A DNA stretch of 64,000 nucleotides. Origin: Polytrichum commune. Taxonomy: Eukaryota > Streptophyta > Polytrichopsida > Polytrichales > Polytrichaceae. The DNA is taken from assembly GCA_950295325.1 (NCBI GenBank), contig OX485803.1:63441554-63505553 (forward strand). The letters run 5' to 3'. A model generated the notes under the pieces. That model saw nothing but the letters and a program-made list of their open reading frames with translations. It did not search any database and had not been told where the DNA came from. Positions 1,303-30,383 of this stretch are shown piece after piece (position 1 is the stretch's first letter; each line of letters opens with the position of its first letter). Position numbers and translations under genes: made by a program.

Positions 1303-2156
1303 GCTGCAGTTCTTTTTGGCATAGTATTCTACTAGTGTACGTATCCCACATAACAGTTTAGCTAAGTTTGTACAATGGGTGGGGCTAGGAATAAGCTAGG
1401 TTCTATTTGAAATTACGCTATCTTTATTCTCACTACAAAGCACTGCACTTGTAGACACAAGTTCCAAAATCTCAGGTAAAATGATGTACTAATACTCTTA
1501 GAATGGGACGACAAATAGTAGCTGAATAATGCTATGCAATTGAGAGACCACACGACTTGGAGGGGACTGGGTACATCCTAACATGTGGAGTGGCTGCCAT
1601 GTGGGGTCATGTACAGTGTCTGAGGAGACTTTTGGAAAGAATGGATCAAGATCACAGTGTGTCCAAGTCCAACCGGTTACAGGTTGTGATCTTTTGGTTT
1701 TCGTTGCCGTGTTATTCTGAGATATATTCCAGAGATTCCTTTCACATGATTGATGATTTTCCTGAAGCTTGAACTTCAACCAGTTATTTCTCAAAGGCAA
1801 CTGGTTCATTGGCAACTACGTGTCGGTCCTCCCCGTTCATTGGTCATACAGATAGAGCTCAACAAATAATGTCCAACCGCACCAAAAGGTCAACGCCGAG
1901 AGGAAGGATCGGAAGAACTTAAGAAGAAGCCTGAGAGACCCAACTCCACTAACTTATTATGTTATGATGCGGCAGTCTAGTCATCTATCAGAGACCTGAT
2001 TTTGTAAAGAAATAGTTCTTGCATGTATCTCCAATCACTTTATACGAGTTCACGTGTATAAGACGTACTCGGCTTGTGTGTTAAATCAGATCCCACGAGC
2101 ACCTGACGAGCAACTGCATTTCATTTAGGCCTTCTTGAGACCTTAGGTTGGCAGTT
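1303..2156. other. Intergenic, upstream of SufB-like gene
   Basis: No supported gene. Positions about 1660-1800 belong to a dispersed repeat whose relatives lie near 41930-42540 and 43430-43570 (shared words AACCGGTTACA and TTCAACCAGTTATTTCTCAAA). The last 200 bases should contain the promoter and leader of the SufB-like gene. No convincing TATA box was picked out. Confidence 0.4.
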
Positions 2157-8089: not shown

Positions 8090-8590
8090 CTAGTTCCGAG
8101 TCTAGTTGGCGAATGATGTGGCATGGCTTAAAAGCGGAGGTTATAATAAGTCTCAAGCACCGACCCTCCCATCGGTTCCTAAACATGAGGCAAGAATATA
8201 GGACCTTTAAAAGTGTCACCTCCTGCCCTTGTGATTGGTTGCTTTTTAGTCTTAGTTATGAGGGCACGAGGAGCTTCATTAACAAAAACCGATGGTAAGA
8301 TAGACGAGTAGTAAGTCATTTGGGGATGGGACAAAAACTACCCAACATTCATTGCTTGGTAGATAAAACAATGAACATGTGTGAAAGCTACTTAACTAAA
8401 ACCTACTTGAAAATCCCTGGAGCAAGTTCTTGTAGGTGCATATTGGGATAACCAGATGCCTCTGCCATAACTAAGGGAGCTTTACCCAGTTTTTAGGAAA
8501 TACTTTGGTTATTAGCTAAAGTCATGTGGGAAGGGGGCATTAGGGTTCTAGTAGTATAGCACAAATGTCTGCTAGCTTAGGGTTTAGGGT
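8090..8590 (+). repeat. Direct repeat, copy A
   Basis: About 500 bp strongly similar to 16350-16860. Shared words include GGCATGGCTTAAAAG, GGTTGCTTTTTAGTCTTAG and GAGGGCACGAGGAGCTTC. The two copies are direct and 8.26 kb apart. Similarity fades gradually at both ends. The repeat type is unknown. It does not show LTR-style TG...CA ends, and no target duplication was found. Confidence 0.75.
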
Positions 8591-8709: not shown

Positions 8710-9269
8710 ATGGCACCAAGGGCACGTGTCCAAAGAGTGAAAGTTGAGGGTAATGAATTGTCATCACAAGAAGCTGAGGAAATTCTAGTTGCTACTATTG
8801 TTCTTGAGAAGGAGAATTGGACAACTCATGATTTTGCAAAGAATCTTGGTGTGAGAGACTATGGGCTTGATACTTTGAAAAGATTTAGGTGCAGATGTAG
8901 GAATCGATAATGATGCAATTATCGCATTTTTTGGGCCTCGAGGTGACCAGGGGTGGAAGCTGGATTCAAACTACTTGTCACATGAGGATATTTGCGATTG
9001 TAGAAGGCATAGTGAGCTTGTATATGGTCATTTGCCGTCAAATGGGTTCTACTTGGCCACATTGGCTAGTTGAGAGGAACAACCACAAAGTTAATTGGAC
9101 CAAGTTCGCCTATGATGCTACCGAACGCCAAGTGACTCTAAGGGAAAATGTGGAGAACAAGAAGATGAAAATTGAGTCTAGTGATGCAACATCATCTTCC
9201 TCCAAACAAAGTAGTTTCTCTGATAACACTATATTCGTTAAATTGAGACTTTCTCTAGTCTCAAATTAA
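8710..9269 (+). pseudogene. Frameshifted ORF of unknown family
   Basis: ATG 8710 opens a frame starting MAPRARVQRVKVEG that ends at 8908-8910. Sequence with good protein character continues in a second frame from about 8886 (DNDAIIAFFGPRGDQGW, then DICDCRRHSELVYGH), and in a third frame from about 9060 (LVERNNHKVNWTKFAYDATE) to the stop at 9269. Two frameshifts are therefore needed to read one protein of about 180 aa. It follows directly after repeat copy A. I do not recognise the family. It may be a remnant ORF of the same mobile element. Confidence 0.4.
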
Positions 9270-9923
9270 TATATGGATCAAACAACATTCCGTGTTCCGA
9301 AACTATATTGCGAACAATCTCAAATATATTATATGTTCTAATATCCCAAATCTATTATGTGTGGACATAAGCACATATGGTAGAGCACTCAACACCAACT
9401 TCATCAACAAAAACACTTTGGGTAGAGCACTCCAAACTAGTTTCATCCAATAAACATATAAAATGGTTTATATTATTAGCATGGTCAATAAAATATAGAC
9501 ATTGCAACATACAAAGTGCATGCAATAAATGCATTTTTCTTCAATGGACAATTTAGTCCCAAACTTAATAAAAAAATGAACTTCACATTTGTATTGAAAT
9601 ATAGTAAATGGATATTCATCCAACCCCAAACAATATAGCATTCGCAAGTTCTACCCAAACTTTGCCCCAAGTTTGAGGAGCACACATATGAGTAATATAT
9701 ATTCGTCGAATTACATATTACACTATAATCATGCTAACACAATCCTACCAACTTCTCATTTAACGTGGGTTGCTTCTTCTGCGATCCGAGCAAGGTTGTC
9801 TTTTGCAAAAGTTATGTACTTTTGAGGGATGGACACCGATCCACTATGATTTTTCCGTGGTTTCCATGCTATGAATATGGAATCTGTATCTATCCAAGAT
9901 GGACCATGCTCAGAATCCACCTT
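9270..9923. other. Intergenic, 3' of DUF7869-like gene
   Basis: AT-rich. A short direct duplication (GGTAGAGCACTC at about 9379 and GGGTAGAGCACTCC at about 9419) is present. No coding region. It should hold the 3' UTR of the minus-strand gene ending at 9924. Confidence 0.35.
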
Positions 9924-12845
9924 CTACCGAAAGTTAGGGTTTGTATCCCAGCCTGTATAATGCCGAACAACATCTTCATTCCGTGATGTCGGTCGGTAGT
10001 ACTCTACTTGTATTTGTCGAAAATGAGGGCTGGAAGTTACAAAATTTGGTTTGGACAAAGCTCTTGCCACCCACACTGGCTTTGCATATGTCTCATCTCC
10101 AGGACGCAAAATGAGCATATAACCTTCATGACAATCCACTGCAATGCGGAAAGATGGTGGCGGACGACTACTAGCAGGCCCCACGTAATGGTCGTCCACA
10201 TCAAACTCCTCTCGAACCTCTCCATTTCCCAAAAGACTAGCCTCCGAAGCTTGTACATTGACACGTGTTTGTGGCCAAAACCCATGCCTTAAAGTAAGGG
10301 GTGTATCTTGATGAAGGTTTGCCAAAGCGCCACGAACACGTGTCCAATATTGTATCCAACTTCCGTAACGAAGCCAACACGATCCACCAACATCCGCTAC
10401 CCTCAAACTCTCCCAATATTGTATGAAGCCTGATATGCCTTTACAAATGTCCTCCAAATTCTTCATGGGTATTGGTTTGCAAGGCTTAGGCTCTCCGTCA
10501 GGCAACATCGTCCTTCCTTCCCCATCAACACGCCATACAAGGAGACCCTCCGGCGGGCTCCAGTCTTGTGATGTGCACAACAACTTGTATTGCATGGCGG
10601 GGACACCATCGTCACGCACGTAGAACCGAAATTGTTGTGCCTTCGTATGCCCGATCAATCGGTGAGCTCCGCTTCGAATATACGGTTCTATAAATGCCTT
10701 GAAGTCTGGAACCTCTTCAATCATATGTGGGATGACGGGAATGTTCTCCAAATCCATGTACGACTTCATCAACAATGGGATTGTTGGAAAATCCTCCTCG
10801 CGCAACTTCATGCTCCACCGCCCAAAGGACGCATCAATATCATCATGCGTGTGGCCTACCAATAGAAAGGACACAAAAACCTCCTTGAAAATGCCTTTCG
10901 CAACCAACAACGACCAATATGCAAAAACATATCTACTTTTATTGTCCTTCGCACAATTGTCCAATTGGACACGCAGAGTTGGGGGCAAATTCTTGGCAAT
11001 CACATCTTCACTTGGTGGCTCCGGCAATGAGTGCACGCATACATCTCTTCCATCCAAGACCGCTTTATATAGAGGTGTTGATCCCGAGTTTTCAAATAGC
11101 AATCTTGATGAATAGGACGGCGGTTTCTCCAAATCACGTAAAAGCTTTGCAAATGACCCTATCGTGTGGTTTGAATCCCCCGGATACAAATCAAGAGCAT
11201 AATGAGCATACTTGACATCTCCATGCCCATGTGCAATCATTCCTGCAAAGGCAACCCAATGGTTTAATATTCAACTATAACACCAAAAAATTCACATGGT
11301 GTACATGTATGGCCCCAAGTACAATCCTAAACGCACAAATTTATGTTTAGGTAATGCAATGCAATTGTTATCAAAATCACCTGTAACCGAAACAGGAAGC
11401 TTAAAAAGGCCGTCCGTGGCTTTTATTCGATTTGCAAAACATGGTGAGGCTGTTTTGGCATGGTCCATTTTGTCATGGATGATTGTAAGGACTTCCAAAG
11501 GCCTGGAGATGGACAAAGCTCTATTTGTGTAGTAATCATTACAGTGTGCCTCTTGCATGTTCACATGCTTGAAATAGTTCATTTGATGTGCGGCATAGGA
11601 CTCTGTCCCCATCGTGTGTGCATCTCGAAGGCGTTTCAACTTCTCGCATTTGGAACAACGGGCAAATTTGTCGCCTCGTCTTTTTGTGATGTATTCGCTA
11701 AAGTGAGATTTTTTGATAGCACTCAGTTTCGACAACGAAATAGGGTCCAACCCGGCCTTCTCGCCAACTGCGTTTACGTCCAACAATATGTCTTTCCATT
11801 TCGTGCCTGTAGGAAGAACCTTCTCCACAACCTTTTCATCGGTTGCGAGTGTCCGTGTTTTGTGCGGCATTGCATCGGCAAGGGGGACAATGATGGTTGC
11901 CAGAGTGGCTGTTGCTTGTCTCGTTGCTTCTCTTGGTTTCTTTAAGCCCGTGTTCTCATGGTGACGGGCACGGCGGCCTTCATTGGCATACGCGGCTTGT
12001 CTATAAAATTCCGCTTTCGACACACCGTGAATGGTGTACCATGCCGTACAACACACGTCTATGTTCTCAAGGGTGATGACCTTGCGACCCGCTCCGTTCA
12101 CATGTATCGCCCTATGGACATCAAGTTTTTTGGTGGATCTTAGACGGAAATCTCCAAGCCACATTTCTTCACGGATGACCTTCAATTTATCTCTTGGGAA
12201 CAATTGGCAACAACGATGTACACAACAATCCTTCGTAGCAACTTCTCTAATAGACTCCTCACAGAGCAACCTTTGACGTTTACACTTATTTGCAGACGGA
12301 GTAGGACGTGTCAATGTTTCGTACTTCCGAAGGCCTTTGCGTGGCCGAATCTTTGCTTGGAGCTCCTGTTGGATTTGGACGTGTCGTCGCTCATGGTCGC
12401 GCAAGCTAACCCCCTCAATTGTCACATTCCTCAACGGCCACCTTCGCAACGAGAACCTATGAGTTGGATTGACTTCCGAATGTACAAGTGATTCTAATAT
12501 AACAACTCCAACGTCCTCGGTGCCAAGGGAGTGTTCATCAATGCAATCTTGTGGATGTGTGTTACGACAAATACCCTCCGCCACAGCAACTCCACTGTCA
12601 TTAACAAGTACCACATCCAAATTCACCCATGAAGCTCGTGAAAGCCCCGCACATTCCACAATGGGGCAAAAAGGGTCAGATGGCGAAGGACTCCCCAAAT
12701 GACCTTCATCTGCACTGTCATCAAAACTATCCTCCCCGACAATGTCTAGCTCATCCCTAGACAGAGATTGGGTGCTGCCCATGTCTTCAGAGAAGGAATC
12801 CCCTCTTCCACCAACTCCCTCCATTGCGCCTACACAAATGCACAT
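9924..12845 (-). CDS. DUF7869-like protein, two exons
   Basis: Exon 12845-11381 and exon 11242-9924 are joined across a 138-bp GT-AG intron (11380-11243) that splits a Gly codon, giving 927 aa. The first half has paired Cys/His motifs (DCCVHRCC; CSKCEKLK; EAHCNDYYTNR). The second half carries VQLDNCAKDNKSRYVF (Asp583) and VGHTHDDID (619-625). I recall this signature from eukaryotic proteins annotated DUF7869, often repeated in non-seed plants and invertebrates. An RNase-H-like, transposase-derived fold is plausible but unverified. An in-frame ATG at 12824 is a second possible start, and an AG just upstream of it leaves room for an earlier exon. Both exons are open throughout. Its 5' side abuts the palindrome array at 13.0-14.1 kb, and the gene lies between the two direct repeats at 8.1 and 16.4 kb, so it could be cargo or the core of a mobile unit. 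Confidence 0.75.
11243..11380 (-). other. Intron of DUF7869-like gene
   Basis: Minus-strand donor CAG/GTGATT and acceptor TTTGCAG/GAATGATTG. Removing it restores a continuous reading frame in which the product runs PVSVTG into MIAHGHGD. Without splicing, the first ORF stops at 11292. Confidence 0.8.
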
Positions 12846-13019
12846 GAAACCTCAACAAACATGGACACAACGTAAGGGTCCAAAAAAATCAAATATTGGA
12901 AAATGCAAAACATCACGATAAATGGGGACACTGAGGATCAAGACATTTGCAACACAAATGCAATGTGAGCTCCCAATACTATGCGCCAGTCCACAAAATG
13001 TTCCACAAAATATTTTGGG

Positions 13020-14123
13020 TGGGAGTTTGGGTCGGCCGACCTAAACCCTGTGGCACCAGGGATTGAGGGCCATCCACACCTTGCCCGTGGGATAGGGTCG
13101 GGTTCCGGTCGACCGACTCAAACCTTGTACAATGATGGGTTGAGGGCCATTTAGAATTCCATCACGCTGTGGGGAAAATTTTGGGTCGACCGACCCAATC
13201 CTTGTCATGGTCAACTACAACCTCCGAAACTCGGGAAGGGGTTGGGTCGACCGACCCAATCTTTGACGGGGTTAATCCACCCACACTGGATAGGGGTTTG
13301 GGTCGGTCGACCCAAACTTTCACAGGCTAAATCCATCCACACTGGGAAGGGGTTTGGGTCGACCGACCCAAACTTTCACAGGGTAAACCCACCACACTCG
13401 GAAGGGGTTTGGGTCGGTCGACCCAAACTTTCACAGGGTAAGTCCACCCACACTGGGAAAGGGTTTGGGTCGGTCGACCCAAACTTTCACAGTGTAAATC
13501 CACCCACACTGGGATGAGGTTTGGGTCGCTCGACCCAAACATTACATATGATGGGATAAGGTTCCTACTCTGTCCGTCCAAACCTTTTGAGTACCTTGGG
13601 TAAGGGCCATTAACAATTCGTTCACGATGTGCGAAAAAGTTTGGGTCGACCGACCCAAACCTTCTGAAAGGTTTTACGATAAACGCCCATAGTGGGGTAG
13701 GGGTTTGGGTCGACCGACCCAAATCTCAGAAGGGTCAGACTAGACCCCCCCCCCCAACACTAGTGAAGGGGTTTGGGTCGACCGACCCAAACCTCACAAG
13801 GGTCAGACTAGACCCCCCCCCAAACACTAGTGAAGGGGTTTGGGTCGACCGACCCAAACCTCACAAGGGTCAGACTAGACCCCCCCCCCAACACTAGTGA
13901 AGGGGTTTGGGTCGATCGACCCAAACCTCACAAGGGTCAGGCTAGACCCCCCCCCCCCAACACTAGTGAAGGGGTTTGGGTCGACTGACCCAAACCTCAC
14001 AAGGGTGAGACTAGAACCCGCCCACACTAGTGGAGGGGTTTGGGTCGATCGACCCAAACCTCAGAATGGTCAGACTAGAACCCGCCCACACTAGTGGAGG
14101 GGTTTGGGTCGACCGACCCAAAC
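13020..14123. repeat. Array of 22-bp palindromes in two tandem unit types
   Basis: About 17 copies of a 22-bp inverted repeat with arms GTTTGGGTCG and CGACCCAAAC around two variable bases (AC, GT, CT or AT). Clear copies begin at 13296, 13352, 13407, 13463, 13519, 13639, 13703, 13771, 13838, 13905, 13974, 14038 and 14102; those at 13020-13260 are degenerate. Spacing is about 56 bp in the first half and 63-69 bp in the second, where units also carry a C-rich run and ACACTAGTG. Every frame through the array is open because the units lack stops, so ORFs here are artefacts. The array lies 5' of the DUF7869-like gene. Confidence 0.95.
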
Positions 14124-14700
14124 CTCACAAGGGTCAGACTGAAACCCGCCAACACTAGTGTCGACCGACGTATAATACAGCGTATAATGCGGCGTATAAT
14201 GCAGCGGATATTGAGAGGTGTGTGGAATTTCATCTCATTGCAAAGTTCACTGCGGACTTGCATGCTGTGAATAGGTCCTCATGAACAACAGCGTGAACGA
14301 ACCTCGAAGTACAGCTCCGACTAAGAGTTCTCTCTACGAATTCAGGAGTGGGAGAAGAGCAAAAAAGAACCAACTTTTGGGGGGTGCGCCCCTTTATACT
14401 ATCCACCTCCACTTGCCCGACTTCCTCGTTGGATGCCTTTCCCACCTTGTTATTTCAAACCTCCTGACAGAATTCCCCGTTTTCTGTTTATTGTAGAAAA
14501 TGCGCATCTTTTAATGCCCCTCTCATACCCCAGCCGTCATATGTCTTAGTCTATGATATTTAATCTTTTTTTGGTTTTGTGTGTATATGACATACGACAT
14601 TGGGAGGAAGGGTGGCGGCCACATTAATTTTTTCAAGTGTCACAACGGTATATTTTAACCAATATGTATACCCAACCACAACTCCATTCAATGCTTTCAA
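14124..14700. other. Array edge and intergenic
   Basis: At 14161-14210 the last palindrome half runs into three short repeats of the type CGTATAATRCRG. The remainder has no supported gene. Confidence 0.4.
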
Positions 14701-14701
14701 G

Positions 14702-14812
14702 TGCAAACCTATTTAGGTGGGGTTGGGGCCATTTGGAGGTTGCAATTATGAGAGAGTTTCCAAGGCTTGAGGCCATTGTCATGATGAATAAAATTATTTA
14801 TTTGTCTCCCCT
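14702..14812 (+). repeat. Dispersed repeat, short form
   Basis: Matches 34809-35080 in two blocks (AACCTATTTAGGTGGGGTTG... and TTCCAAGGCTTGAGGCCATT...). Here the blocks are adjacent; in the other copy about 165 bp lies between them. It is directly followed by a telomere-like CCCTAAA run. Confidence 0.7.
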
Positions 14813-14828
14813 AAACCCTAAACCCTAG
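14807..14828. repeat. Interstitial telomere-like motif
   Basis: Nearly three units of CCCTAAA, the plant-type telomere repeat, at the junction of the dispersed repeat and following DNA. A second, similar run is at 15567-15602. Confidence 0.7.
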
Positions 14829-14987
14829 AACATTGCGGCTCTGTTATCTCGCATGGAAGTGTGGCAATGATAAACGTATGTGGACGTTGTTAAGGGGATA
14901 CTAACTAGCAATGTCGCTTTTTGGTTCAATCTTTTAATGTTATTTCAATCCATCCTCAAGTTCACTTCAAGTTTACTAATGTGTGTG

Positions 14988-15820
14988 ACCAAAACATCCA
15001 AAGTTGGACCCTAAACCCTTATAACATCCACAACATGAAATACGTATTGACAAAATACAAAACCAATTAGTATATCATGTTTAAACGTCCCAAATAACAT
15101 ATTAACATGATCAAGATTGTATTTACTATAACCTTCCTATTAGACTCTTCTTCATATTATGCAAACAATATCTGTTATATCTTTCTCCATTATCCAATAC
15201 ATGTGGAGGGAACAATGAATAAGAACATGATTGCGTGAATGGCTTCATTTGATGTTGTGCTTCTCTTATTTACTTTTGCATCACATTCCATATATTAAAT
15301 ACATCATGAACCATGGTTTATTGGCGACTATGTGATTCCCTAAAGTGAGCAAAACATCCAAAGTTGAACCCCTTACCCCTAATAACATCCACAACATTTC
15401 ATGTTATTTGAATAAACACAAGACCATTCACTATATCACGTTTAAACGTCCGTAATAACAAATAAACATAATCAAGATCGTCTTTTCTATTACCTTCCAG
15501 TAAAAACCTATTCTCACCAGTAAGTCAATGTTATATGTTAATATTGGATAGATTAATATGTTATAAACCTAACTCCTAACTCCTAAACCCTAAACCCTAA
15601 ATACAAAAATTCGTAGTTGTTCACTGCTACCTCCACATACAAACAACATGAACTTTATCTTGCGCCATTATGTAATATATGTGGAGGGAACATTCAATAA
15701 CAACATGATTGCGTCAAAGGGCTTCATTTGATGTTGTGGTTCTCCGATTTACTTTTATATCACATTCGAAGTACATATATCACGATCCATGGTTTATTGG
15801 CGACTATGTGATTCATTCAA
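14988..15820. repeat. Tandem duplication with telomere-like insertion in second copy
   Basis: Unit 1 (14988-15345) and unit 2 (15347-15820) share ordered words: AAAACATCCAAAGTTG, TATCA(T/C)GTTTAAACGTCC, ATGTGGAGGGAACA and CCATGGTTTATTGGCGACTA. The offset is about 358 bp at the start and 477 bp at the end because unit 2 has about 120 extra bases (about 15500-15655). That extra segment contains CCTAACTCCTAAACCCTAAACCCTAAA-type telomere-like sequence. No coding content. Confidence 0.7.
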
Positions 15821-16349
15821 GTGAGTATGTAAGGGATTTACTAAAAACTTGAGCATGTTAGCATTTCGACATAAGGATCATGCAATTCCAAACCCTGAGA
15901 AAATGCTCTTGGGGAAGGTATACATTTAGCAAACACATTCAAATATCCTAAATTTCCGAATTTCATGTTGGGGGACGGGGGTTATATTTTTTATTCATTG
16001 CATATTGTGTGAGTTCTTGGCATCATTGGTAAAGTCTAAATGTCAACGATTACATCGTTAAATGTCACGCAATTGTATTATTTTTCTAACTTGCTCAAAC
16101 AAAAGAGAAACCAATGATTTCAACTTGTTTGGGAAATTTAGGTTATGGTGTCATGTGAGTAGGGGTTAAGTCTTAGTTTTAGCATAACGTTGCGTTGTAA
16201 AAATGCATTAGTTGTATAAATGGTTTCATTTTGTAGAATACCGCATTTGATGTGCACCTTATGGGGCATTCCCTCTTGACATTAGTTAGAAGTAGTATTA
16301 GTCTAAATGCGGTTTTAGTTATCTAGGTTTCACACATATGGCTCTTTTT
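15821..16349. other. Intergenic
   Basis: AT-rich, with no gene or element recognised. Confidence 0.3.
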
Positions 16350-16860
16350 AGTGCCGAGCCTAGGTGGCAAATGATGTGGCATGGCTTAAAAGTGGAGGTT
16401 TTAAGCCTCAACCACCGACGCTCCCATCGGTACCTAAACATTAGGCAAGAATATAGGAATTTTAAAAGTGTCGCCTCCCACCCTTGTGACTGGTTGCTTT
16501 TTAGTCTTAGCTATGAGGGCACGAGGAGCTTCATTAACAAAAACCGATGGTAAGATAGGTGAGTAGTAAGGCATTTGGGGATGGGACAAAAACTACCCAA
16601 CATTCATTGCTTGGTAGATAAAACCATGAACATGTGTGAAAGCTACTTAACTAAAACCTACTTGAAAATCTCCGGAGCAAGTTCTTGTAGGTGCATTGGG
16701 ATAGTTGGATGCCTCCGCTATAACCGAGGGAGCTTTACCCGGTCTTTATAAAATAGTGAGGGTCTTAACTAAAGTCAAGTGGGAATGCCCCATTAGGGTA
16801 CTCCAAAGTGTCTTGAAAATACTAATGCCCGCTAAGGGTTTACAGTTTGGCTTTAGGATT
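16350..16860 (+). repeat. Direct repeat, copy B
   Basis: The partner of 8090-8590. It ends just before the probable transcription start region of the ParB-methylase-phosphatase gene, so it may contribute promoter sequence. Identity is high in the middle and lower at the edges. Confidence 0.75.
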
Positions 16861-17805
16861 TAGGGTTCCCCGTAATCCTAATTCCGTTGGTGCCCTAATC
16901 CCGTTGGCACCCTATTCGTGCGGTTGGGGGCCAATTCCCGAGGCATACAAAACCCCAGCCGTCACAACTTTTCGCTCTTTCTCTCTCTCTCCGCGCCAAG
17001 CATTCGCTCCGCGCCTCTTGTGGAAGCGCCGCCTCTCCTGAAGCGCCGCTTTCGCGAAGCGCAGTGGCGATTCAGGGTGGCGATTTTCTTCTCTTCCCTC
17101 CCTTCTTGTTGCTTTGGCGCCTACTGATTCTTCTCCTTCCCTCCCTTCTCTTGCTGTAGAAGTTAGGAAGTGTTTGCAATAGAACAGAAACCTAAGGAGA
17201 GAGTTTTAGAGTGCGTGAGAGTTAGTAGAGTGATTGTTGTAGAGTGAAGTAAGTAGAAGATTGTTGAAGGGTTTTCCAACATTCTAAGCTTGCGGGTTTT
17301 GGAGGCTGTATTGTAGTTGGAGAGTTTGTGAGATTTAGGAGTTCTATAAGATAATCAGGAGGTGTTTGAGAGATACAAAAGTCATTTGAGAGAGTCAGTC
17401 ATTGTTTTGAGAGATTCACTTGTTCTTAGGGATTCAGAGGTTGTTTGAAACACTCAATTGTTGTTTGAGAGATACAAAAGTCATTTGAGAGAGTCAGTCA
17501 TTGTTTTGAGAGATTCACTTGTTCTTAGGGATTCAGAGGTTGTTTGAAACACTCAATTGTTGTTTGAGAGATATCTAAGTCATTTGAGAGAGTCAGTTAT
17601 TGTTTTGAGAGATTCACTTGTTCTTAGAGATTCAGAGGTTGTTTGAAGTATTGAATTGTTGTTTGAGAGATTCAAAAGAGATCTAGGAGTTGTATGAGAG
17701 ATTGTGGATTTGTGTGAGAGGTTACATTCAACTGTTTCTGTGTTATTGGAAGAAGAACACCTGTTCTAAAGCAACTGTTTACAACAACTGCTACATACAA
17801 CAAAG
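16861..17805 (+). promoter_or_regulatory. Probable promoter and non-coding leader exon
   Basis: A CT-rich initiator-like stretch (CTTTCTCTCTCTCTCC, about 16977-16992) is followed by GC-rich DNA, then by G/A/T-rich sequence with three 99-bp tandem repeats (17363-17659). The segment ends at a good splice donor, CAAAG/GTATTT, at 17805/17806. The matching acceptor TTACAG at 18362-18367 lies directly before ATG 18368, giving a 562-bp leader intron. Transcription is inferred, not shown. Confidence 0.5.
17363..17659 (+). repeat. Three 99-bp tandem repeats in the leader
   Basis: TGTTTGAGAGATA recurs at 17363, 17462 and 17561, with a partial fourth copy at 17660. Each unit holds a smaller GAGAGATTCA-type repeat. 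The period is a multiple of three, but no ATG-started frame is maintained, so it is read as untranslated leader. Confidence 0.85.
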
Positions 17806-17923
17806 GTATTTTCTTTTATTATATGCAATAAGTGTTTGTCAATTGAAGGTATTGTAGCATACACAACGCATAAGCATTGTATATGCTACGTGCCAACTTT
17901 TAAAAATTACATTAAAATAGGAA

Positions 17924-18080
17924 AGTTTGGGGAGACGACCCAAACACGGCCACAGGTTTGGGTCGGTCGACCCAAACACAGCCTCTTGTTTGGGTCGACC
18001 GACCCAAACACAGTCTCTTGTTTGGGTCGACCGACCCAAACACAAAACAAAGCATCATGTTTGGGCCGAACGACCCAAAC
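17924..18080. repeat. Palindromes in leader intron
   Basis: Copies of the 22-bp palindrome start at 17956, 17988 and 18020 (32-bp spacing). Imperfect copies are at about 17924 and 18059, and another at about 18319. They lie in the intron 17806-18367. Confidence 0.9.
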
Positions 18081-18367
18081 AACGTCTTCTAATTATAAAC
18101 TCATAAAGAAATCCATGATTTTTGCATCAATATAAAATTCACATCCACTAAAAAATAATAATCAAGGAATGTATCAAGGAAAAGTATCAAGTAATCCTGC
18201 ATGTCACAAACAATATAAAATGCAAATCCACCCAATAATCAAAACATTCTTATTATCAATACAAATGATGCTGAAATATATAAATATACAATCCACCTAA
18301 ACCTATTCATGTCGTAGATGTTTGGGTCGAACGACCGAAACTAACATTGCACATTATTTTCTTACAG

Positions 18368-21300
18368 ATGGCTCCAAAGAAAAGACCCGGCGAAAGGTGG
18401 TTCATGCCTGCGCCGGACATGTTGTGGCAGGAGCACGAAACCCCGCAGGATGACTCCTATTCCCCTAAGGACGGGCTTGTCCTCGCGTGGTCTATACAAG
18501 TGGTTAAGGGTTCGCAATACAAAATGATTTTTGTTGTGAAGGTTGGGACCGTGGAGAAGCACACATGGGCTACTCTTACGGGGTGGGAGGTGGCATCGGT
18601 TCAGTCTCTTGGAGACTACGTGGATGTCATCCTCGAGAACAACGCTGTCCAGAACGCGCATATGTTTATGCACCAGTTCTCCGAACCCTTTGACGCTATC
18701 TATGCAAAAGAAACATGTGTAGAACCAGACGTCATCAAACCGGAGTCCATATTCATCGATAACAGTACATCGAACACAAAGGTGTCGAGCAGATTCACGA
18801 AACTAAAGCATGCAATCAGCGTGCTCAACAAAGCCCTGCAGAGCAAAACCAAGTCTCAGCAACCCGTGAGGCGGAAAGCAACCACAGAGGAAGGAGCAGG
18901 GTCGTCAAGACCTCAATCGGTGAGGAAGCCGCGACCAGTACCGGCTGACTCGCGGAGGACCACTCCCTCCCAAACACCTGCGGATAGCGAGACGCCTACA
19001 CCTTCTGGGAGCCATCAAACAACTCCATCCAAGAGGGGGAGAGAGTCATCTGTGATGACTGACGAGCCAGTCTCACCGGAGTTGCGCATGCCGAAGCCCG
19101 GCGAAGAGGTGGATGCAGGGGAGCTGCAGAAAATCGTGAACAATTTCACGACGAAATGCTCCCACTGTTTTTTCATGGGCAGGGATTTTAAGTTCGACGT
19201 GAACATCAGCCAGTGCCATCTAGCGCCACCGGAGAAGTGTGTCCGGGCAAAGGAGGATGCCTACGTTGACTGGATAATCGCGCAGATCGTTTGCGAGCAG
19301 TTTAAAGACGACAGGCAAACGATAGTAGTGATGCCACAGGGTCTCAAGAAAATGCCTACACCTGAAATGTGGCCCACAATTCAGAAGGGCGATTTTTGGC
19401 TCATAGACGGCCAGCACAGCGTGGAGGCATCCAAGAAAATCCAACTCATGAATGAGTGGGATGATCCGAACAATCAGAAGGAAAAGCTGAAGGTTTGGAA
19501 GGCACTGGTGGTGTGGTCTGACGACGAGACCAAGCTCAGCGACATCTCCCGGTACTTCAATATGGGAAATAAGAAGAGGGCCTACCAAGCTTCCTCGATA
19601 AGGAATATCATGGCCTTGCGGGAGGTGTGGGAGTTCTATGGTAGGCCTCCCAAGGAGAGGGAGAATGCGAAGGACAAGAATCCCAAATGGGAGGTGAGTA
19701 TTGTTTAGGTCGACCGACCCAAACTCCTGATGCAACTAGTTTATTTAGTTTGGATCGATCGACCCAAACTGTTGTTGCAGATGTTGGTCATGATATGGGT
19801 TGGAAATCACATGTACATATCTAACACGCATTCAAATGTTCTGTTTTGTGGACGTGCAGGATTTCAAATACCAAATGATCAACAAATTCTCCTCCATTGA
19901 TAATTCGAGCCACAAGCAGAAGAAATACAGCGACCTCAAGGGGGAGATTTACTTGATTACAGCATCTGACTCAGTTTGGAGGAAGTGGAAAACCGTGTTT
20001 GAAAAGCACGAGACGGGGGATTTTATCGACCCCGACACTGGCATTTTCTTCAGCCAAACCTCGCGCTTCAAGCAGATGAAGCCTCTCGTGAGAGAGTTCT
20101 TTAGAACTCTTCAAGGGCTGTCAGAGACGGAGGTGGAGAAGGCGGCATCTCACATCCTGCACGTGGCACCCACGGCGAAGAGGTGTTGGGTGCACCCGAA
20201 GATTGTCTTCCAAAAGCCCAAATCCTTCGTTCCTTCATGCTACACCATGAAGGAATGGACGGATAACAGGAAAAAGAAGACGACTATCGTGCAGGAGCTG
20301 CATAAACTAGTGCCAGAGAGGAATATTGTCGTGGACGGCGAGGTCCATGAGGCTAACTGGAGAGCATTCAAAGCTGAATATAAGTTCACCAGTGCCTCCA
20401 TGGCGGCTCTAATAAGGGAAGCGGGGGACGACTTCTTGCGGGCCAAGATGGTGAAGGGTGGGAAGAACCGGGCGCTTCCGGATCACACAGCGCGTGCGTT
20501 CTCGAACTTCATCAAGGAGAAGAAGATTGTCCAGTTTGAAGGGGAAGCGTACTTCAACCTTGTCATCGCCGACCCGTTGAAAATTCAGGGCTGGCCAGGT
20601 CAAGACGCCAGAATGGCGATAAGGACGAAAGCAAGGGACCGCTTTCCTTTTGGGATGATTGATTTCAGGAATATTCCTGGAAGCTCATTTGAGGGCACGA
20701 TGAGCACCCTCTTCTATGACCCCTTCCTATCTAAGTTCGTCGATTATGCAAGCCCTAAGTTCAGGGAGGTAGATATCTGGCTTTGGATAGTCGAGGATAG
20801 GAGGGCGGAGCAGGTGTACGAGCTTGTCCGGAAATTGCAGCCGGAGTATGCAGTCTCCAAGTCTCACTACATCGCCGCACCGGCGGAGGGAGCTTATACG
20901 ACGTTGAGGGACAAGAAGACCAAGTTCGTCAACGTCTTGTGTTTGTACTTCGTGTACAAAGCGGAGTTGCTGAAGGTGCCGAACCACCCTATATCCCAGA
21001 TGGACAAACTCTTCCAAGTTCCAGAAGGGTTGGGTGTCAACAAGTGCCTCTACGACGAGGCTAAATACGCGAACTATCCTTTAGATGAGCTGCGGATGGA
21101 ATTTTACGTGAGAATGATGAGGACGCTGACGAGGAGAGGGGATTGCATCTTCAACGTCTTCGGAGGCTCTAAACCTATCTATGCTGCCATGGTAAGCGAC
21201 TTTCTATAACTCGTGCACAGTTTGGGTCGATCGACCCAAACTAGGCTCTGTGTTGGTTTGGGTCGATCGACCCAAACTAGGCTCTTTGTTGGTTTGGGTC

Positions 21301-24286
21301 GATCGACCCAAACTAGTCTCTTTGTTGGTTTGGGTCGATCGACCCAAACTAGTCTCTTTGTTGGTTTGGGTCGATCGACCCAAACTAGGCTCTTTGTTGG
21401 TTTGGGTCGATCGACCCAAACTACACATTGTACTTGGTCTTGTTTATGTCCCTCGCCTAATTCTAATGTCTATATAACTTGGATTGTGTAGATGTCGGGG
21501 CTGAGTATATACTCCTACATAGAGGATGGCGATCTGCCATTTTACAGGACGCAGAGATCGTTGGCGAAGAAGATGGACATCCTCGATTGGATCCCGGGTA
21601 GCTACGTCGACGAGGTTGTTCAGGGGGGCGAAAACCCTCTTGATAGGGTGAGGCGGATCAACCCGGAAGAAATGGCCATGAGGGCCACAACCCAAGAACC
21701 CGAACCTCTTGTCGGGTTGCATCCGGGCAATCCGTCCCGCACAGAAGGTGGCGATGTCGAGGAGGAGGAGGAAGAAGAGGAGCACGAGGAGGCGGAGAAG
21801 GAAGGCGACGTGGAGGAAGGGGCAACGGGCTTCACGCAAGAATCCGAAGCCCCTCAACGGAAGAAGGCGATGCGGGCGGCAACCCCGCAGAGTAAGCTCG
21901 TGCCCGTCCTGACGGTGGACGATGCACGGGACATGTACTCCAGGGACGCGACCGCCACGTTCAGGGAGAGGAGGAAGATGAAGGGGAAGAAGCTGTATGG
22001 CGACTACTCCGTGGAGGAGACCATTGCCATAAGCAGCGAGGACGACGATGACATTGAGCTCGCCAAACGGCTAAGATCAGATCCCCCGTCCCCGACAGCG
22101 TTCGCTGGCATGGTTAGGGTGAAGCCCGAGGTTCTGACTGTGGAGGAGGCGAACGAGAAGATGAGGAGGGACGAGGAGCAGCGAGTCCGCCTGCAGAAGG
22201 CTGCCGCGGAAGAACCCTCAATGCGGAACGAGGTAGCAGAGCTAAGGGCTCTCCTGTTGGAGCAGGAGCGACAGAGGGCGATGGCCCAACCTCCGTCCCA
22301 CACCGAATTGATATCACAAGTGATACAAGGAATGTGGGCGCAAGGTTTGGTGGTGGCTCCCTCCAGCTCCTTCCCGCACTTGCCCCCCGGCTTCCCTCCG
22401 CAGAGCATCCCTCAGCAGCCTGTGCCGCAATCGTCTTTCAGCTTCCAGCACTTGATGCGGCCCCACCAAGTTCCGTACGCGCCGGTCCAGCAAGTGGATG
22501 ACCCCAACATCTGGCGCGTCTGTGGAGCCTCCTCCCCTTTGGGCCCTCCACCACTTCGGCCCCCGATAGTCATGGCGCCCCCTCACCAATCGGACGACCC
22601 CAGGATGTTTGGGTCGACTGACCCAAACCCACCATCCACTGGAGTGTCCGAAGGGCCCTCTCCAGATGCAGGACAGTTTGGGTCGCCCGACCCAAACCCC
22701 GTTGCAGCGCAGTCCTCCTTTGACCAACATGGGTGTCAACTAGACACGGCCATGCTAGATGTTGAAGGCTTGCAAGGGCTTGGTGATACCTCTACTCCTA
22801 ACCAAATCGATGAACCCATGCATGATGCAAATGCGGAGATTGGTTTAGGACAAGGGCCTGATGCCGATCGTTTGCAGGAGAAGGTTCCTGACGTCGTCGG
22901 AGAAGGCGGTGGCGAGAGAGGCGGGGCAGCGGGGATGGTGGAGGCTTCCACATCGTCGAGACATGACCAGGGCGAGGTAATACACTGAGCCCTCCCCAGT
23001 TTGGGTCGACCGACCCAAACTTCCTGGGTCATTGTCTTGTTGGCGTGGTCGTGTCCCCCTTGCTAGGAGGAAATGCACACCCCCTGCCCCCCATGCTCTA
23101 CACTTGCTCCCCCTCCCCCCAACGTGCCCCCCCGCGATCCCCTTCGTCTCACCTGCACTCGACTATGCTCGACCTTGGCGGCGCGCAACCAATTTTGTAG
23201 ATGTAGAATTAGGATAGTGTGAATGCCCTTGTTCACCGCGGTCCCCCCCCCCCCCCCCCAATCAAATTGTACATAGAGATTTGTAAAAATAAAATTATTA
23301 TTTTGGGCGCCCATATGTTTGCATCTGTGTCCCAATGTATGTTGTTCCCCTTGTATGTTTTTGTTGCCACCAATGGTCCAATTCTTCTTGTGTTTGCACA
23401 AAATTTCCGTTCTGCTTGAGATGGACATAGCATAACATAGTCCTCGTCCGCCTTCTCTCGCTTGTCGCCGCAGGGTTCGGAGCATAGCGTCGCAGCTCCC
23501 CACCGATCCTCTCCGAGGAGTGTGGAGGACAGCGCGGTGGTCCCCCCGATTTTGCCCTCGCCACCTTCGCCTCCCAAGACCCGGTTCCTGGTGCTAGACC
23601 TCAACGGGGTCCTTGTCCAGTGCGTGCATTGTCTGAGGGTCCCCACGGTGCCTTTCTGCAAGCCCGAGGACGCCAACTACGATGGTCCCCCCGCGTACAT
23701 CAAAAGCAAGCTAGTGTACCTCCGCCCGTGGCTTCGGCGCTTCCTGCAGGTCGCCCTATCCAAATGGTGGGTGATCGTGTGGAGCTCCATGAAGTCCGAG
23801 AACACCCAGGCCGTCGTGGAGTTCATCTTCAAGGGACTCCAACCCCCGTGCTTGGTCCTAGGACAGGACTCTTGTAGAACGTTATACACCCCCGAGGGCA
23901 GGGTTGTGAAAAAACCCAACAACCCCGCCGTAAACCAATTTCTTAAGGTCTTGAAGCTAGTCGTATGGGACCAGCGTCCGACCATGGTCGGCTGTCCCTA
24001 CGACGTTCGCCCCACCCGTGACAACACGTTGATGGTGGACGACAGCGCTTCCAAAAACATTTTGAACCCGACCTCGAACTTCATAGTTTGCCCCACGTGG
24101 ACGGTCGAGAAGGTCCGAGACCGCTTTTTGTTAGACCTACTTAAGTACATTCAAACGCTCGTGGGGAGCGGACTACCCGTGCCCCGGTTCCTTAGTTGTA
24201 ATCCGATAGGCGAAAGATACATGGATCCGAAGGACTATATGTACAGAGAGTTGTACGCTCACGCGAAATATAATAAACTCATTTGA
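18368..24286 (+). CDS. ParB-like / DNA-methylase-like / FCP1-phosphatase-like fusion protein
   Basis: Exons 18368-19693, 19860-21191, 21492-22976 and 23474-24286, all joined in phase 0 at GT-AG sites, give about 1651 aa. Residues 270-440: ParB/DGQH-like region with GDFWLIDGQHSVEASKK (IDGQHS 346-351). Residues 590-900: methyltransferase-like, with FNLVIADPL (Asp680; family DPPY) before GDCIFNVFGGS (869-879; family DPF.GSG) and then AAMMSGLSIYSYIE across the exon 2/3 joint. This is motif IV before motif I, as in the permuted class. Residues 973-1000 are Glu-rich, and about 1103-1153 predict a coiled coil. Residues 1418-1620 are FCP1/HAD-like: LVLDLNGVLV (Asp1423), VWSSMKS (Ser1485), MVDDSASKN (Asp1570-1571). 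ParB-methylase fusions are known in phages and bacteria; a fusion to FCP1 is not known to me. The catalytic DPPY and GSG motifs are degenerate, so methylation is doubtful. Confidence 0.7.
19704..19768. repeat. Two palindromes in intron 19694-19859
   Basis: Slightly diverged copies of the 22-bp palindrome at about 19704 (GTTTAGGTCG arm) and about 19747 (GTTTGGATCG arm), both inside the second intron of the fusion gene. Confidence 0.85.
21220..21421. repeat. Six palindromes at exact 36-bp spacing in intron
   Basis: Copies start at 21220, 21256, 21292, 21328, 21364 and 21400. All have an AT centre, so the core reads TCGATCGA. They sit in the intron 21192-21491. The near-identity and exact period indicate a recent tandem expansion. 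Confidence 0.95.
22607..22697 (+). repeat. Two in-frame exonic palindromes
   Basis: Palindromes at 22607-22628 (one arm base changed) and 22676-22697 lie inside exon 3 of the fusion gene. They are read in frame as FGSTDPN and FGSPDPN within a Pro-rich linker. No frame is broken, because a 22-bp core plus flank was accommodated. Confidence 0.9.
22999..23020. repeat. Palindrome in intron 22977-23473
   Basis: A single perfect-arm copy (AC centre), 23 bases after the splice donor. The same intron holds a run of about 16 C at 23247-23262. Confidence 0.95.
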
Positions 24287-24405
24287 GATACTACATGGTG
24301 TGCCATTGTGTGTGATATATTATGCCTCAATTGTATATCGATTTTCACATGCTCCCCCCTCCCCCCCTCCCCTTGGGTTTTGTTTTGTTTCCTTTTTTGC
24401 GCCAG

Positions 24406-25227
24406 CGTTTGGAGCCCTCGATTGAGATCGTCAGCGAATCAAACTTGGGGAGCTTCTTCTACGAGACCGTCTACGATGCCGCGTCCACCATCGACTACTC
24501 CAAGGAGCCTATCGACGCCGGCGTCGTCGATAGCCCCCCACTCAAGCAAATCTTCCGGCCATCTCCGTCCCCGTCGCCGCTCAAGGGCATAAATCGCAAA
24601 TGCGTCCGGACGTCCCCCTCTCGGCCCGGCGGCAGTATTACACCTCAACGGCGGCTGCGGATGGACGCTCGGCCCACGAAGAGTGGCACCCTTCCTATCC
24701 CTTTGCGGGACGCCTTGCCCCTCCTCGCCAACTCCGACGGGAACGCCCCCGGTGACAAGGTGAACCCCCCCCCCCCCCCCAAAACATGGTTAACCGCGCA
24801 TTACAATCATCCCGCACTTAAAAATTGAACGTGTGACACGTTTGGGTCTTCCTCCCTAAACTAACACATGTGTTCTTGCATTGACGCGTTGCAGGTTGCT
24901 CCCACCCGTAAACCTATGCGGGCTAGTGCGTCCGTCGAGTTGGAGCGTTTCTACTCCATGACCAGAAATGCAAGACAGTCCACTTCATCGTATTCGAATT
25001 CTTCGTCGTATAATTCGGGCGGCCGACGGAATCCAAAATGTGTTTTTGATGGCGGTCACCCCAAGAATGGCTATAGTCGCGGGGCGGAGATTTTCAGGAA
25101 TGTTGAAGCAATGCGAGCAAAAGAAGCCGCAGCAAAAGAAAAAGAGGCAAAAGAAAAAGAGGCAAAAGAAAAAAAAGCAAAAGAAAATGAAGCAAAAGAA
25201 AAAGAGGTAGTCTCCGAGGCTAGATAG
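24406..25227 (+). CDS. Downstream exon pair, linkage to fusion gene unresolved
   Basis: Two open segments look like exons: 24406-24759 (after acceptor GCGCCAG, ending at donor AAG/GTGAAC; 118 codons, phase 0) and 24895-25227 (after TTGCAG, ending at TAG; 110 codons plus stop). The first begins RLEPSIEIVSESNLG and is Pro/Ser-rich. The second begins VAPTRKPMRASASVEL and ends in a Lys/Glu/Ala repeat (AKEKE type) that should form a charged helix. They may be the 3' end of the fusion gene, but the preceding exon runs into TGA at 24284-24286 and I found no strong phase-0 donor before it. Alternatives are a separate small gene or alternative 3' exons. Confidence 0.45.
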
Positions 25228-25369
25228 GCCATAGTAGGCGTAGGGTTGTGGGCCATAGGCAAGAACATTTTGGGTCGCACTATCCAATGGATGTGTGGTG
25301 TTAGCATGCTATGCATTTTACATGCCACACTTTGTATGTTTTTTTTGCAATAATATAAGTGTCACATGA

Positions 25370-25620
25370 TTTCCCCTTCCATATGGTCTAAGGTTTGGAT
25401 TGCCCTACCTAAACCATCACAAATATGAGTTTGGAATATTTTGTATGTTATATTATATTGGTTCACATATTTCCCCTTCAATATGATCTATGGTTTGGAT
25501 TGCCCTACCTAAACCATATTCATACAAGTTTTTGTGCGATAATATGAATGTTTTAAGATTTCCCCTTCAACTTGGCCTAAGGTTTGGATTGCCCACCCTA
25601 AACAATCCCAAATATGAGTT
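25370..25620. repeat. Three ~100-bp units with decayed palindromes
   Basis: TTTCCCCTTC...GGTTTGGATTGCCC(T/A)ACC(T)TAAAC recurs three times. The arms GTTTGG and CCTAAAC are a decayed version of the 22-bp palindrome, so the family has an older layer downstream of the gene. Confidence 0.6.
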
Positions 25621-26690
25621 ATTAATGGGGTTCTTGTTCTAAACACCCGCTTCAAAGTGTTCGCATCTTACAACTTTCTCCAATATGTGTTCCATTTATC
25701 CTTGTTCTTATTTTTGTGAATGTCTCAAAATGCCCAAAAAGTCTCAATTTAACGAATATAGTGTTTGATTGGATAAACAATAAGGTATTGATTCTAAACA
25801 TGCGAACAAGTTGCTGCTACAAGTCTCTGAATAAGTTTAGGTCATGTTGGAACAATTGTAAGCTAAGTTTCTTTGTGTGGATTGGAGGTTGCTAGATGTG
25901 ATCACTCGAGAGGGGAAGGTTTTAGGCCTATGAGTGATAGAATCAAGTTCCCAGCATTGAAGGACTTGAACACAGTAATGTTGTTGCAGTAGTACATGCC
26001 ACTAGTTACAGTTTGTTCATGAACTCAGATCTAAAGCTTCGATCAGTTCTCACCCACATATCCATTAACCCTTAAAGGACATATGCTTTCCCGATACCAC
26101 ACCCAAAATATCTTTTAAAATTCATTTTAAGCATGATTAACCAATTAATTTACATAGGCTCTATTCTAAAGAAGTATAGATCTTGCTAAGGTGCTCGATT
26201 TGGCATCCTAAAAACCCCATTTGGTGCAATGGAGTAGAAGTTTTGAACAAGATTCTCCCAAAATAATACCAAGCCCGTGGGGCTTGCATTGTCGTTTAAG
26301 GGTTAACAGAGCCGAAATGTGACCATTTTGGTAATGTCCGGCAACCTAAGATGTTTCAGCTTGGATGGCACCATGTGACAACAAGGTCGACTTTTGGTTC
26401 TTATGGTGAAAGTCTGTGGTTTTAGGGTGGTCTGCCGGTGCACTCTGCACATGACTTTTCGTGGTGTTTGTGAGTGTGGATTACCAAAGCTGGCTGGATG
26501 TGAGTTGAGAGGAAATTTAAATTATACTGCTAAAAGTGATGGATTATTTTTCCTCATGTGATTTGTCAACTCACTTGAAGGTGCATTTTGGGGACCTTTA
26601 ACTATGGTACGCTTGAGGACTACGACTAACTTTGGGTTGCTCTTGCCTAGGACATGGGCATTGTGCAAGAAAATGATGCTAGTTGTTTCA
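25621..26690. other. Intergenic
   Basis: No supported gene, only generic AT-rich sequence. Confidence 0.3.
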
Positions 26691-28761: not shown

Positions 28762-29036
28762 TAAGGGCCGCTTTACACCTAGAGGCCGGGCCAATTTCCC
28801 TTGAGGCCGATTGCACAAAATTTGAGCCTTTTTTGGGTTGGAGGCCGGCCTCTACTACACATTATAATAAGATTATAACGGGGGCCAATTTTCCCATATG
28901 TAAAGGCCCTTGGGCCAAGAAGCCAAGCCGATTCAATAAATTTAGGAAAATTTTAGCCCCTCTTTCTTTCTTTTCATTGTCATTTGTACAAGATGGATGA
29001 ACGTAGACGGAAGATTTTAGTTTTCTTGTGTTCTTC

Positions 29037-30383
29037 ATGGCCGTGCGACATGTTATGGCGGTTGTTGCAATTTTGCAAAAAATTGCTTTGCATGATCATT
29101 ATGCTGCCATGACAATTGTTTTTGCTACGATGGTTGTGGAGAGTAGTACGTCTAGGAGGACACGGAGTATTTGGATGTATGACCAGAGTATTATTTTTGC
29201 GGATAGATTGTTATTTGGATGTTACTCGGTTAAGTTATTCAAACAATATACAAGGTTACTTCCCAAAACTTTTGATTATTTGTGCGGTGTCTTATCTCCA
29301 TCATTAAGTCGTAAGGATACAAATTTCAGAGCATCCATTCCTCTTAAAAACCGGATTGCTTTTTCTTTTAATAGACTTAGTAGTGGTAATTCATTACGCG
29401 GTTGTGCTGAAACTTATGAAATTCATGAAAGTACTGCATCTATCATTGTAAGGGAGTTTTGTGCAGCAATTGAAAAACATTTAAAACCACTAGTAATTGA
29501 GAAACAATCTAAAGCTACATTGAATAGAATTGCAGCCAAGTTTGAGGAGCTTAGGGGATTACCTTATGTAATTGGAGCGGTTGATGGTAGTCATATACCC
29601 ATCATTGTTCCTCCTATAGATCCTACTTCATATTATTGTAGAAAAGGTTTCTATTCAGCTCTACTTCAAGGTGTAGTGAATAGCAAATGTAGGTTTTGGA
29701 ATTATGATTTTGGATGGGCTGGGCGTTGCCATGATTGGACTTTGTTCCAAAATTCAGATATTGGGAAAAAAATGATGAAAGGTGAGTTATTACCTTACAA
29801 ACTTATGGGTGATGTTGCTTATCCAATGAGACCATGGTTCTACTCTCCTTTCAAAGGTGAAAAAGATGGATTACCTAGAGCAAAGGCGCATTGGAATTTC
29901 ATCCAATCATCAACAAGAATGGCAGTAGAAAAAACTTTTGGCATATTGAAAGGGAGGTAGAAGATATTATTGAAAAGAATTGACATGCCTCTCCGACATG
30001 TACCTAATTTGGTTACTACTTGCATTTGTCTTCACAACTTGTGCATATTACACCGAAACAAATTTGATGATGAATGGGAAAAAATAGAAGAAAGAATCAT
30101 GCATAGAGAGAGTATAAATCAACTTGGACAGCTAGAAAATGTAGATATATTTATGGCAGCTACACAAGCTGCAAAAGAGATGAGGAGGTACCTGAAAATG
30201 GACGAGGTTGAAGCAGGAACTATGCAAATTGAAGACCTTGAAGAAACTATGGTAAATACATTTGAAGATTTAGGAGAAGATGAAGATGAAGATAAGAGTG
30301 CGGAGGTAGTCGAAACAAAAAAAACAAAAAAACAAGGATTAAAAACTTGCTGGTGCAAGCAACACAAGCACATAATTTACTAG
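29037..30383 (+). pseudogene. Harbinger transposase with one in-frame stop
   Basis: ATG 29037 opens a frame to TAG 29958-29960. The same frame continues to the stop at 30381-30383, about 448 codons overall. The DDE triad is visible as AVDGSHIPI (Asp183), MGDVAYPM (Asp259) and AVEKTFGILKGR (Glu298), with no other lesion. The stop falls where HARBI-type transposases have the Trp of GRW, so a TGG-to-TAG change is the simplest reading. The tail is Asp/Glu-rich and then Lys-rich. The family cuts and pastes elements with the Myb-like partner. An earlier start in another frame (28993) reads only 39 codons. It is non-autonomous unless read through. Confidence 0.9.

Follow-up and report, generated by a model that had tools for sequence, protein, structure and literature searches.

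The window, the whole stretch of 64,000 nucleotides of Polytrichum commune DNA analysed here, contained a transposable element with two divergent genes, a probable transposase gene on the minus strand and a multi-exon gene on the plus strand. The borders of the element were set by alignment with three other copies, all of which reached the same two borders, where the alignment with the window diverged. One of the three compared copies lacked a segment at about 9984–10160. The features were as follows (positions in the window; palindromes are sites of motif A, GTTTGGGTCGNNCGACCCAAAC).

9225..25765, no strand: whole transposable element, 16,541 bp
9221..9224, no strand: target site duplication (left), TGAT, repeated at 25766–25769
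25766..25769, no strand: target site duplication (right), TGAT, matching the left one
9225..9249, plus: left 25-bp terminal inverted repeat, AACACTATATTCGTTAAATTGAGAC
25741..25765, minus: right 25-bp terminal inverted repeat
9927..11270, minus: probable transposase, 3' exon; DUF7869 domain with GHTHDDID (PF25273, E = 8.6e-42)
11295..12851, minus: probable transposase, 5' exon; open frame of 519 aa
13025..14123, no strand: array region upstream of the transposase frame, with 17 copies of GTTTGGGTCGNNCGACCCAAAC at no more than 3 mismatches
17805..18367, plus: probable 5'UTR intron (AAAG/GTATTT ... TTACAG/ATG; splice sites by sequence only), 5 palindromes
18368..19693, plus: E1, N-terminal region and ParB-like segment (FWLIDGQHSVEASKK)
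19694..19859, plus: intron 1, 2 palindromes
19860..21191, plus: E2, methylase-like region with degenerate motif IV (NLVIADPL) and motif-I-like GDCIFNVFGGS
21192..21491, plus: intron 2, 6 palindromes in 36-bp tandem units
21492..22976, plus: E3, an acidic, proline-rich linker preceded by a possible methylase motif-II region (by eye); 2 palindromes within the coding sequence
22977..23473, plus: intron 3, 1 palindrome
23474..24286, plus: E4, NIF/FCP1-like phosphatase domain (DLNGVL, VWSS, VDDS), ending in a stop
24406..24759, plus: E5, alternative phase-0 exon; second-family counterpart at L007, 41% over 85 aligned residues
24895..25227, plus: E6, alternative terminal exon; second-family counterpart at L007, 46% over 82 aligned residues

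Ends, copy number and superfamily of the transposon

The two 25-bp terminal inverted repeats were perfect. In the genome assembly searched (408 Mb), the 23-base core of the end repeat had 682 exact occurrences (335 + 347), and the reversed control had none (0 + 0). Exact 4-bp target duplications were present in 13 of 14 insertions overall: three of the first four, the window's own included, and all ten further paired ends on contig C1, where every duplication was different. A clean 4-bp duplication was not found at the insertion at C5:20.26 Mb. The DNA of E1–E2 matched 60 places in the genome (581 candidates, 40 scored), and at least 21 full-length matches at 95–100% identity were present among the 40 scored of these candidates. 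Both exons were open in 14 of 22 copies, counting that of the window. E1 and E2 of 19 of the best copies (L010–L028) were 98.7–99.6% identical to the window, which argues for recent activity of the element.

The plus-strand gene is almost certainly an accessory gene of this giant, recently active, Sola-like DNA transposon. The original prediction had taken it for a plant host gene, in which a prokaryotic ParB–methylase was fused with a plant phosphatase. Such a fusion would account for an open multi-exon frame with a NIF domain, but the gene sits inside the transposon and is present in numerous near-identical copies, which inverted repeats and target duplications delimit. A host gene fusion is highly improbable, and copy number and element ends led us to reject it.

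The minus-strand DUF7869 gene (9927–12851) is probably the transposase gene, with a putative catalytic role. Acidic residues were visible in it by eye, and its 5' exon (11295–12851) had no Pfam match. All 150 scored places in the genome, of 1491 candidates, matched DUF7869, and a literature search by that name found no paper. CACTA elements have CACTA ends and target duplications of 2–3 bp. The ends of the present element read AACACTA and its duplications were 4 bp, and a CACTA identity was rejected on these grounds. Given the size of the element and its 4-bp duplications, we assign it with fair confidence to the Sola superfamily. Sola elements are described, in the portion of PMC10741241 that deals with them, as having DDD transposases, 4-bp duplications and sizes that can exceed 15 kb, and as present in Physcomitrella and not common in flowering plants. 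The present element shares with the Sola elements of that portion (PMC10741241) its large size, its inverted terminal repeats and its target duplications of 4 bp; the likeness is one of size, ends and duplications, and the probable transposase of the element is known by the Pfam name DUF7869. Sola goes unmentioned in PMC3706591.

Another element in the window was indicated by a DDE_Tnp_4 transposase match at 29007–29957 (plus strand, E = 5.2e-19). A SufB/SufD core domain upstream of the transposon (2139–3743, plus strand, E = 2.1e-38) probably belongs to an ordinary host gene. A stretch of 295 bases occurred in two places, 94% identical, at 16402–16696 inside the transposon and at 8147–8441 outside it. 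Since the three other element copies also carried the inside stretch, we read it as a probable nested insertion of a small repeat that became fixed.

Exons of the accessory gene and a second family

E1–E4 formed one open product of 1651 aa, with GT–AG introns between them, all in phase 0. The four phase-0 exons of the original prediction were thereby recovered, together with the peptides it quoted. The FCP1-like phosphatase domain it had proposed was also borne out by an HMM search, in which E4 matched PF03031 (E = 1.2e-13; score 51.5 bits, cut-off 21.8). An NCBIfam dullard-like model matched the NIF exon below its cut-off, and a PDB sequence search gave no NIF match at E up to 0.01.

A genome search for the NIF family yielded at least 152 matches (965 candidates, 150 scored), and most of those listed had similar scores and open frames of about 257–283 aa. 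NIF copies with 42–44% identity (L006–L008) led us to a second family, termed family B, the window element belonging to family A. PF03031 matched family B copy L006 with E = 2.1e-17. Identity between family B and the window was 37% for E1, 34–38% for E2 and 43–44% for NIF. The exon order E1–E2–E3–NIF was the same in the second family, and the domain order originally proposed holds as an order of motifs. For at least 75 of 150 listed family B E2 matches, the listed matches included a same-strand NIF match 2.4–4.5 kb downstream (random mean 0.1), and at least 18 of 150 listed NIF matches had a listed opposite-strand DUF7869 match 12–20 kb upstream (random mean 0.35), both counts being lower bounds among the matches listed.

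The ratio dN/dS was 0.07 (L049/L050) and 0.11 (window/L029) for E1, 0.08–0.21 within family B and 0.23–0.24 within family A for E2, and 0.14 (L006/L007) for E4. These values, 0.07–0.24, show purifying selection on E1, E2 and the NIF exon. Ratios between families A and B were saturated and are not taken as evidence (E1 not computable; E2 0.33 at pS 0.70). Alignment A1 was made without E1 of L051, which has two in-frame stops; L052 was without E1, and E1 of L030, without a start, was left unscored.

E5 and E6 lie 3' of the NIF stop codon and are in frame with E3, an arrangement that suggests alternative splicing of E4 versus E5–E6. Because they continue the frame of E3 and have family B counterparts, an isoform without NIF, in which E4 is skipped for E5–E6, is likely; its predicted length is 1609 aa. 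The same exons could instead belong to two products, E1–E3 (with E5–E6) forming one, and the NIF exon E4 being part of another transcript or rarely used. We consider this somewhat unlikely. It agrees with the stop codon of E4 and with the continued E3 frame of E5–E6, both alternatives having family B counterparts, but E4 is in phase 0 with its acceptor in frame with E3, and NIF also follows E2 in the same orientation in family B.

In three aligned sequences, the first Asp of DxDx, the Ser of VWSS, a candidate Lys and the two Asp of VDDS were kept. Active FCP1-type enzymes carry DxDx(T/V) with both Asp. That motif was absent from the window, L006 and L007, all of which read DLNGV, the second catalytic Asp of the domain being replaced by Asn (DLNGVL). 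The exon is thus like FCP1/NLI-interacting factor phosphatases in its domain match above the cut-off, and differs from them in having D-x-N instead of D-x-D. In the host-type genes L002 and L003, DVNG stands where active enzymes have DxDx(T/V). From DLNGVL in the exon and DVNG in these genes, the NIF exon resembles a plant lineage, and its phosphatase activity is doubtful. L003 and L004 (G000:C2:43.149–43.151 Mb) were two adjoining NIF matches on one strand, and may be related to the source from which the NIF exon was captured.

ParB-like and methylase-like segments

The ParB and methylase names for E1 and E2, and with them the original ParB–methylase call, are taken from motif resemblance and a published analogue. 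In HMM searches no Pfam, PHROG or NCBIfam model for ParB or DNA methylase matched E1 or E2 of the window, and E1 and E2 of family B had no ParB or methylase match in Pfam and PHROGs. A single-sequence fold model of the ParB-like part was uninformative (pLDDT 40.8). With a ParB profile of 69 YbdM-type proteins (E1 of L051 kept with X), the best match lay off the expected motif, and 5 of 200 shuffles scored as well. A methylase profile was made from 17 methylases (YhdJ and 16 from viral contigs). Over the whole region it aligned weakly on motif I (16 of 200 shuffles as high), and over the C-terminal part 3 of 200 shuffles were as high. In global mode the alignment was off target (7 of 100), as was a comparison against a single nuclear methylase-like protein (42 of 150); a broader profile with two more sequences gave 7 of 150. 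Among viral contigs, E2 alone matched no pattern, and the E2 and E1 profiles gave 103 and 55 pattern matches, none of them confirmed. In prokaryote genomes, E1 gave 56 pattern matches, again with none confirmed. PDB sequence searches returned no match to E1 with E of 10 or below, a best E of 0.23 for E2, and best E values of 0.17 and 0.1 when two alignments were used.

The analogue is Sola1-1_Ec32 of Ectocarpus, a 21.5-kb element with an accessory gene opposite the transposase, for which the portion of PMC12477816 that treats it names both a ParB-like and an N4/N6 methylase domain in a protein of 1104 aa and cites similar transposon proteins of green and red algae. Like Sola1-1_Ec32 as presented there, the moss element is a giant transposon in which an accessory gene lies opposite the probable transposase, with ParB-like motifs before methylase-like ones. 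Unlike the protein of that account, the moss protein is without profile-recognised domains, has lost motif IV and has gained a NIF exon. The order had been thought undescribed; in the same portion of PMC12477816, ParB–methylase accessory proteins of transposons are already a class in print, so far as predictions from algae, and what remained of the claim is the attached NIF exon. Our literature search, mainly of open-access papers, found no NIF exon on a ParB–methylase transposon protein. Searching for NLI interacting factor together with transposon gave a single paper, unrelated by title, and PMC13317346 contains no mention of moss, bryophyte, Sola, phosphatase or ParB.

The ParB-like DGQHS segment was kept in both families. 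The motif-I GGS region was also nearly always kept between them (GGSK in four of five rows, GGNK in L052), while the DPPY-like residues were not: these read IADPLKI in family A and, for example, MTSGVERV in family B. The original view of the methylase part as degenerate holds. N4/N6 DNA methylases have (D/N/S)PP(Y/F/W) as their catalytic motif. It was absent here, being DPLK in family A and not recognisable in family B. Catalytic motif IV is lost from the methylase-like part of both families, and that part is probably a non-catalytic scaffold for binding. It is quite unlikely that the protein still works as a methylase of N4-cytosine or N6-adenine type and so marks the element that encodes it. 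The largely conserved motif-I-like GGS region and the resemblance of IADPL to a decayed DPPY would fit it, and self-marking is proposed for Sola1 and algal elements in the portion of PMC12477816 concerned, but the state of motif IV in the two families speaks against it.

Elsewhere in the genome, a search with PF02195 gave four matches, all on contigs C10, C12 (L199) and C23. These were clear ParB_N matches, C10 and C12 also matched N6_N4 methylase, and C12, a 61-kb contig, carried a ParB–methylase fusion frame of 498 aa. We regard the three contigs as probable bacterial contamination of the assembly. With PF01555, 83 matches had an E of 1 or below, five of them above the cut-off. At L198, on a large contig (G000:C1:9660900–9662900), an N6_N4_Mtase match of 30.6 bits had DIPY and LSVGTG motifs. 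Dozens of weaker partial N6_N4_Mtase matches, many with frames of 119 aa, suggest that a further repeat family carries a methylase-like exon. E2 did not align with the methylase-like protein at C1:9662150, and family B E1 alone gave a weak match to it (E = 0.006, 27%).

Family-specific palindromes and a possible function

Motif A, with up to 3 mismatches, had 33 sites in the element and none in the other 47,459 bases of the window. It did not occur in 20 Markov controls, nor, at this threshold, in the family B loci L007 and L048–L051 (four copies). The sites were distributed as 17 upstream of the transposase frame, 5 in the 5' intron, 9 in introns 1–3 and 2 in E3, and 31 of the 33 were non-coding. 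Several arrays were tandem repeats; those at 13025..14123 lay partly in tandem units of 56 bp and about 67 bp. With up to 5 mismatches the window had 39 sites, all inside the element, and the six weaker ones (4–5 mismatches) were nearer the ends (9416, 24840, 25268, 25393, 25493 and 25582). Family B had a different palindrome, motif B (TTACGAACGNNCGTTCGTAA), with 49 distinct sites at up to 4 mismatches in four copies (56 raw matches over five loci, 7 of them counted twice as L007 and L048 overlap), and none in the window element. The second-family NIF copy L006 had neither motif within its 3.6 kb. Each family has its own palindrome, arrayed in non-coding regions, in the window and the fetched loci that these counts cover.

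The VANC21 motif is described, in the portion of PMC5735166 that concerns it, as enriched in its own family, lying mainly in non-coding arrays and accumulated as tandem repeats. The moss families resemble VANC/VANDAL as described there (PMC5735166) in their family-specific short motifs, mostly non-coding arrays and tandem accumulation, and differ in element class, in a 20–22-bp palindrome instead of a nine-base motif, and in that anti-silencing in the moss is putative. On this likeness of motif layout, we slightly favour, as the best explanation of the whole, an element-encoded, self-recognising regulator of the transposon. The plus-strand protein (1651 aa with E4, 1609 aa without) would bind the palindromes of its own element, its targets being the arrays 5' of the transposase frame and those within the accessory gene, in its 5' intron and its other introns. 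Recognition would be by the ParB-like segment or by the methylase-like segment of E2–E3, the latter as a binding scaffold whose catalytic motif IV is gone. We hypothesize, by analogy with VANC and VANDAL, that such binding would maintain expression of the element or protect it from silencing; binding and outcome together we put forward tentatively, at a little short of an even chance. The NIF exon, seemingly optional through splicing, may add phospho-binding or a phosphatase-like activity, for which RNA polymerase II is a possible target.

Palindrome binding might also serve transposition itself. TnpA of CACTA elements is an analogue that binds palindromes and assembles the transpososome. A transposon that combines a divergent gene pair with dense palindromes would suit such a factor, as would the six weaker sites nearer the ends, but all palindromes with up to 3 mismatches were at least 3.8 kb away from the left end and 2.7 kb away from the right end, and they clustered upstream of genes and in introns. 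A transposition factor of this kind is unlikely.

The self-recognising regulator can be extended to a more specific and rather doubtful scenario. A decayed ParB–methylase would have kept palindrome recognition, lost methyl transfer and gained a host-derived CTD-phosphatase-like exon, and would have co-evolved with family-specific palindromes, placed in the introns of the element and upstream of its genes, into a private gene-control system, by which a family would make its own copies, and no others, open to transcription. If true, this would be a second route, unrelated to VANC and beside it, by which plant transposons escape silencing, and a polymerase-type phosphatase domain would have been recruited into it. 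The two families, with proteins nearly 40% identical and different palindromes, form a testable pair for whether the protein reads its palindrome.
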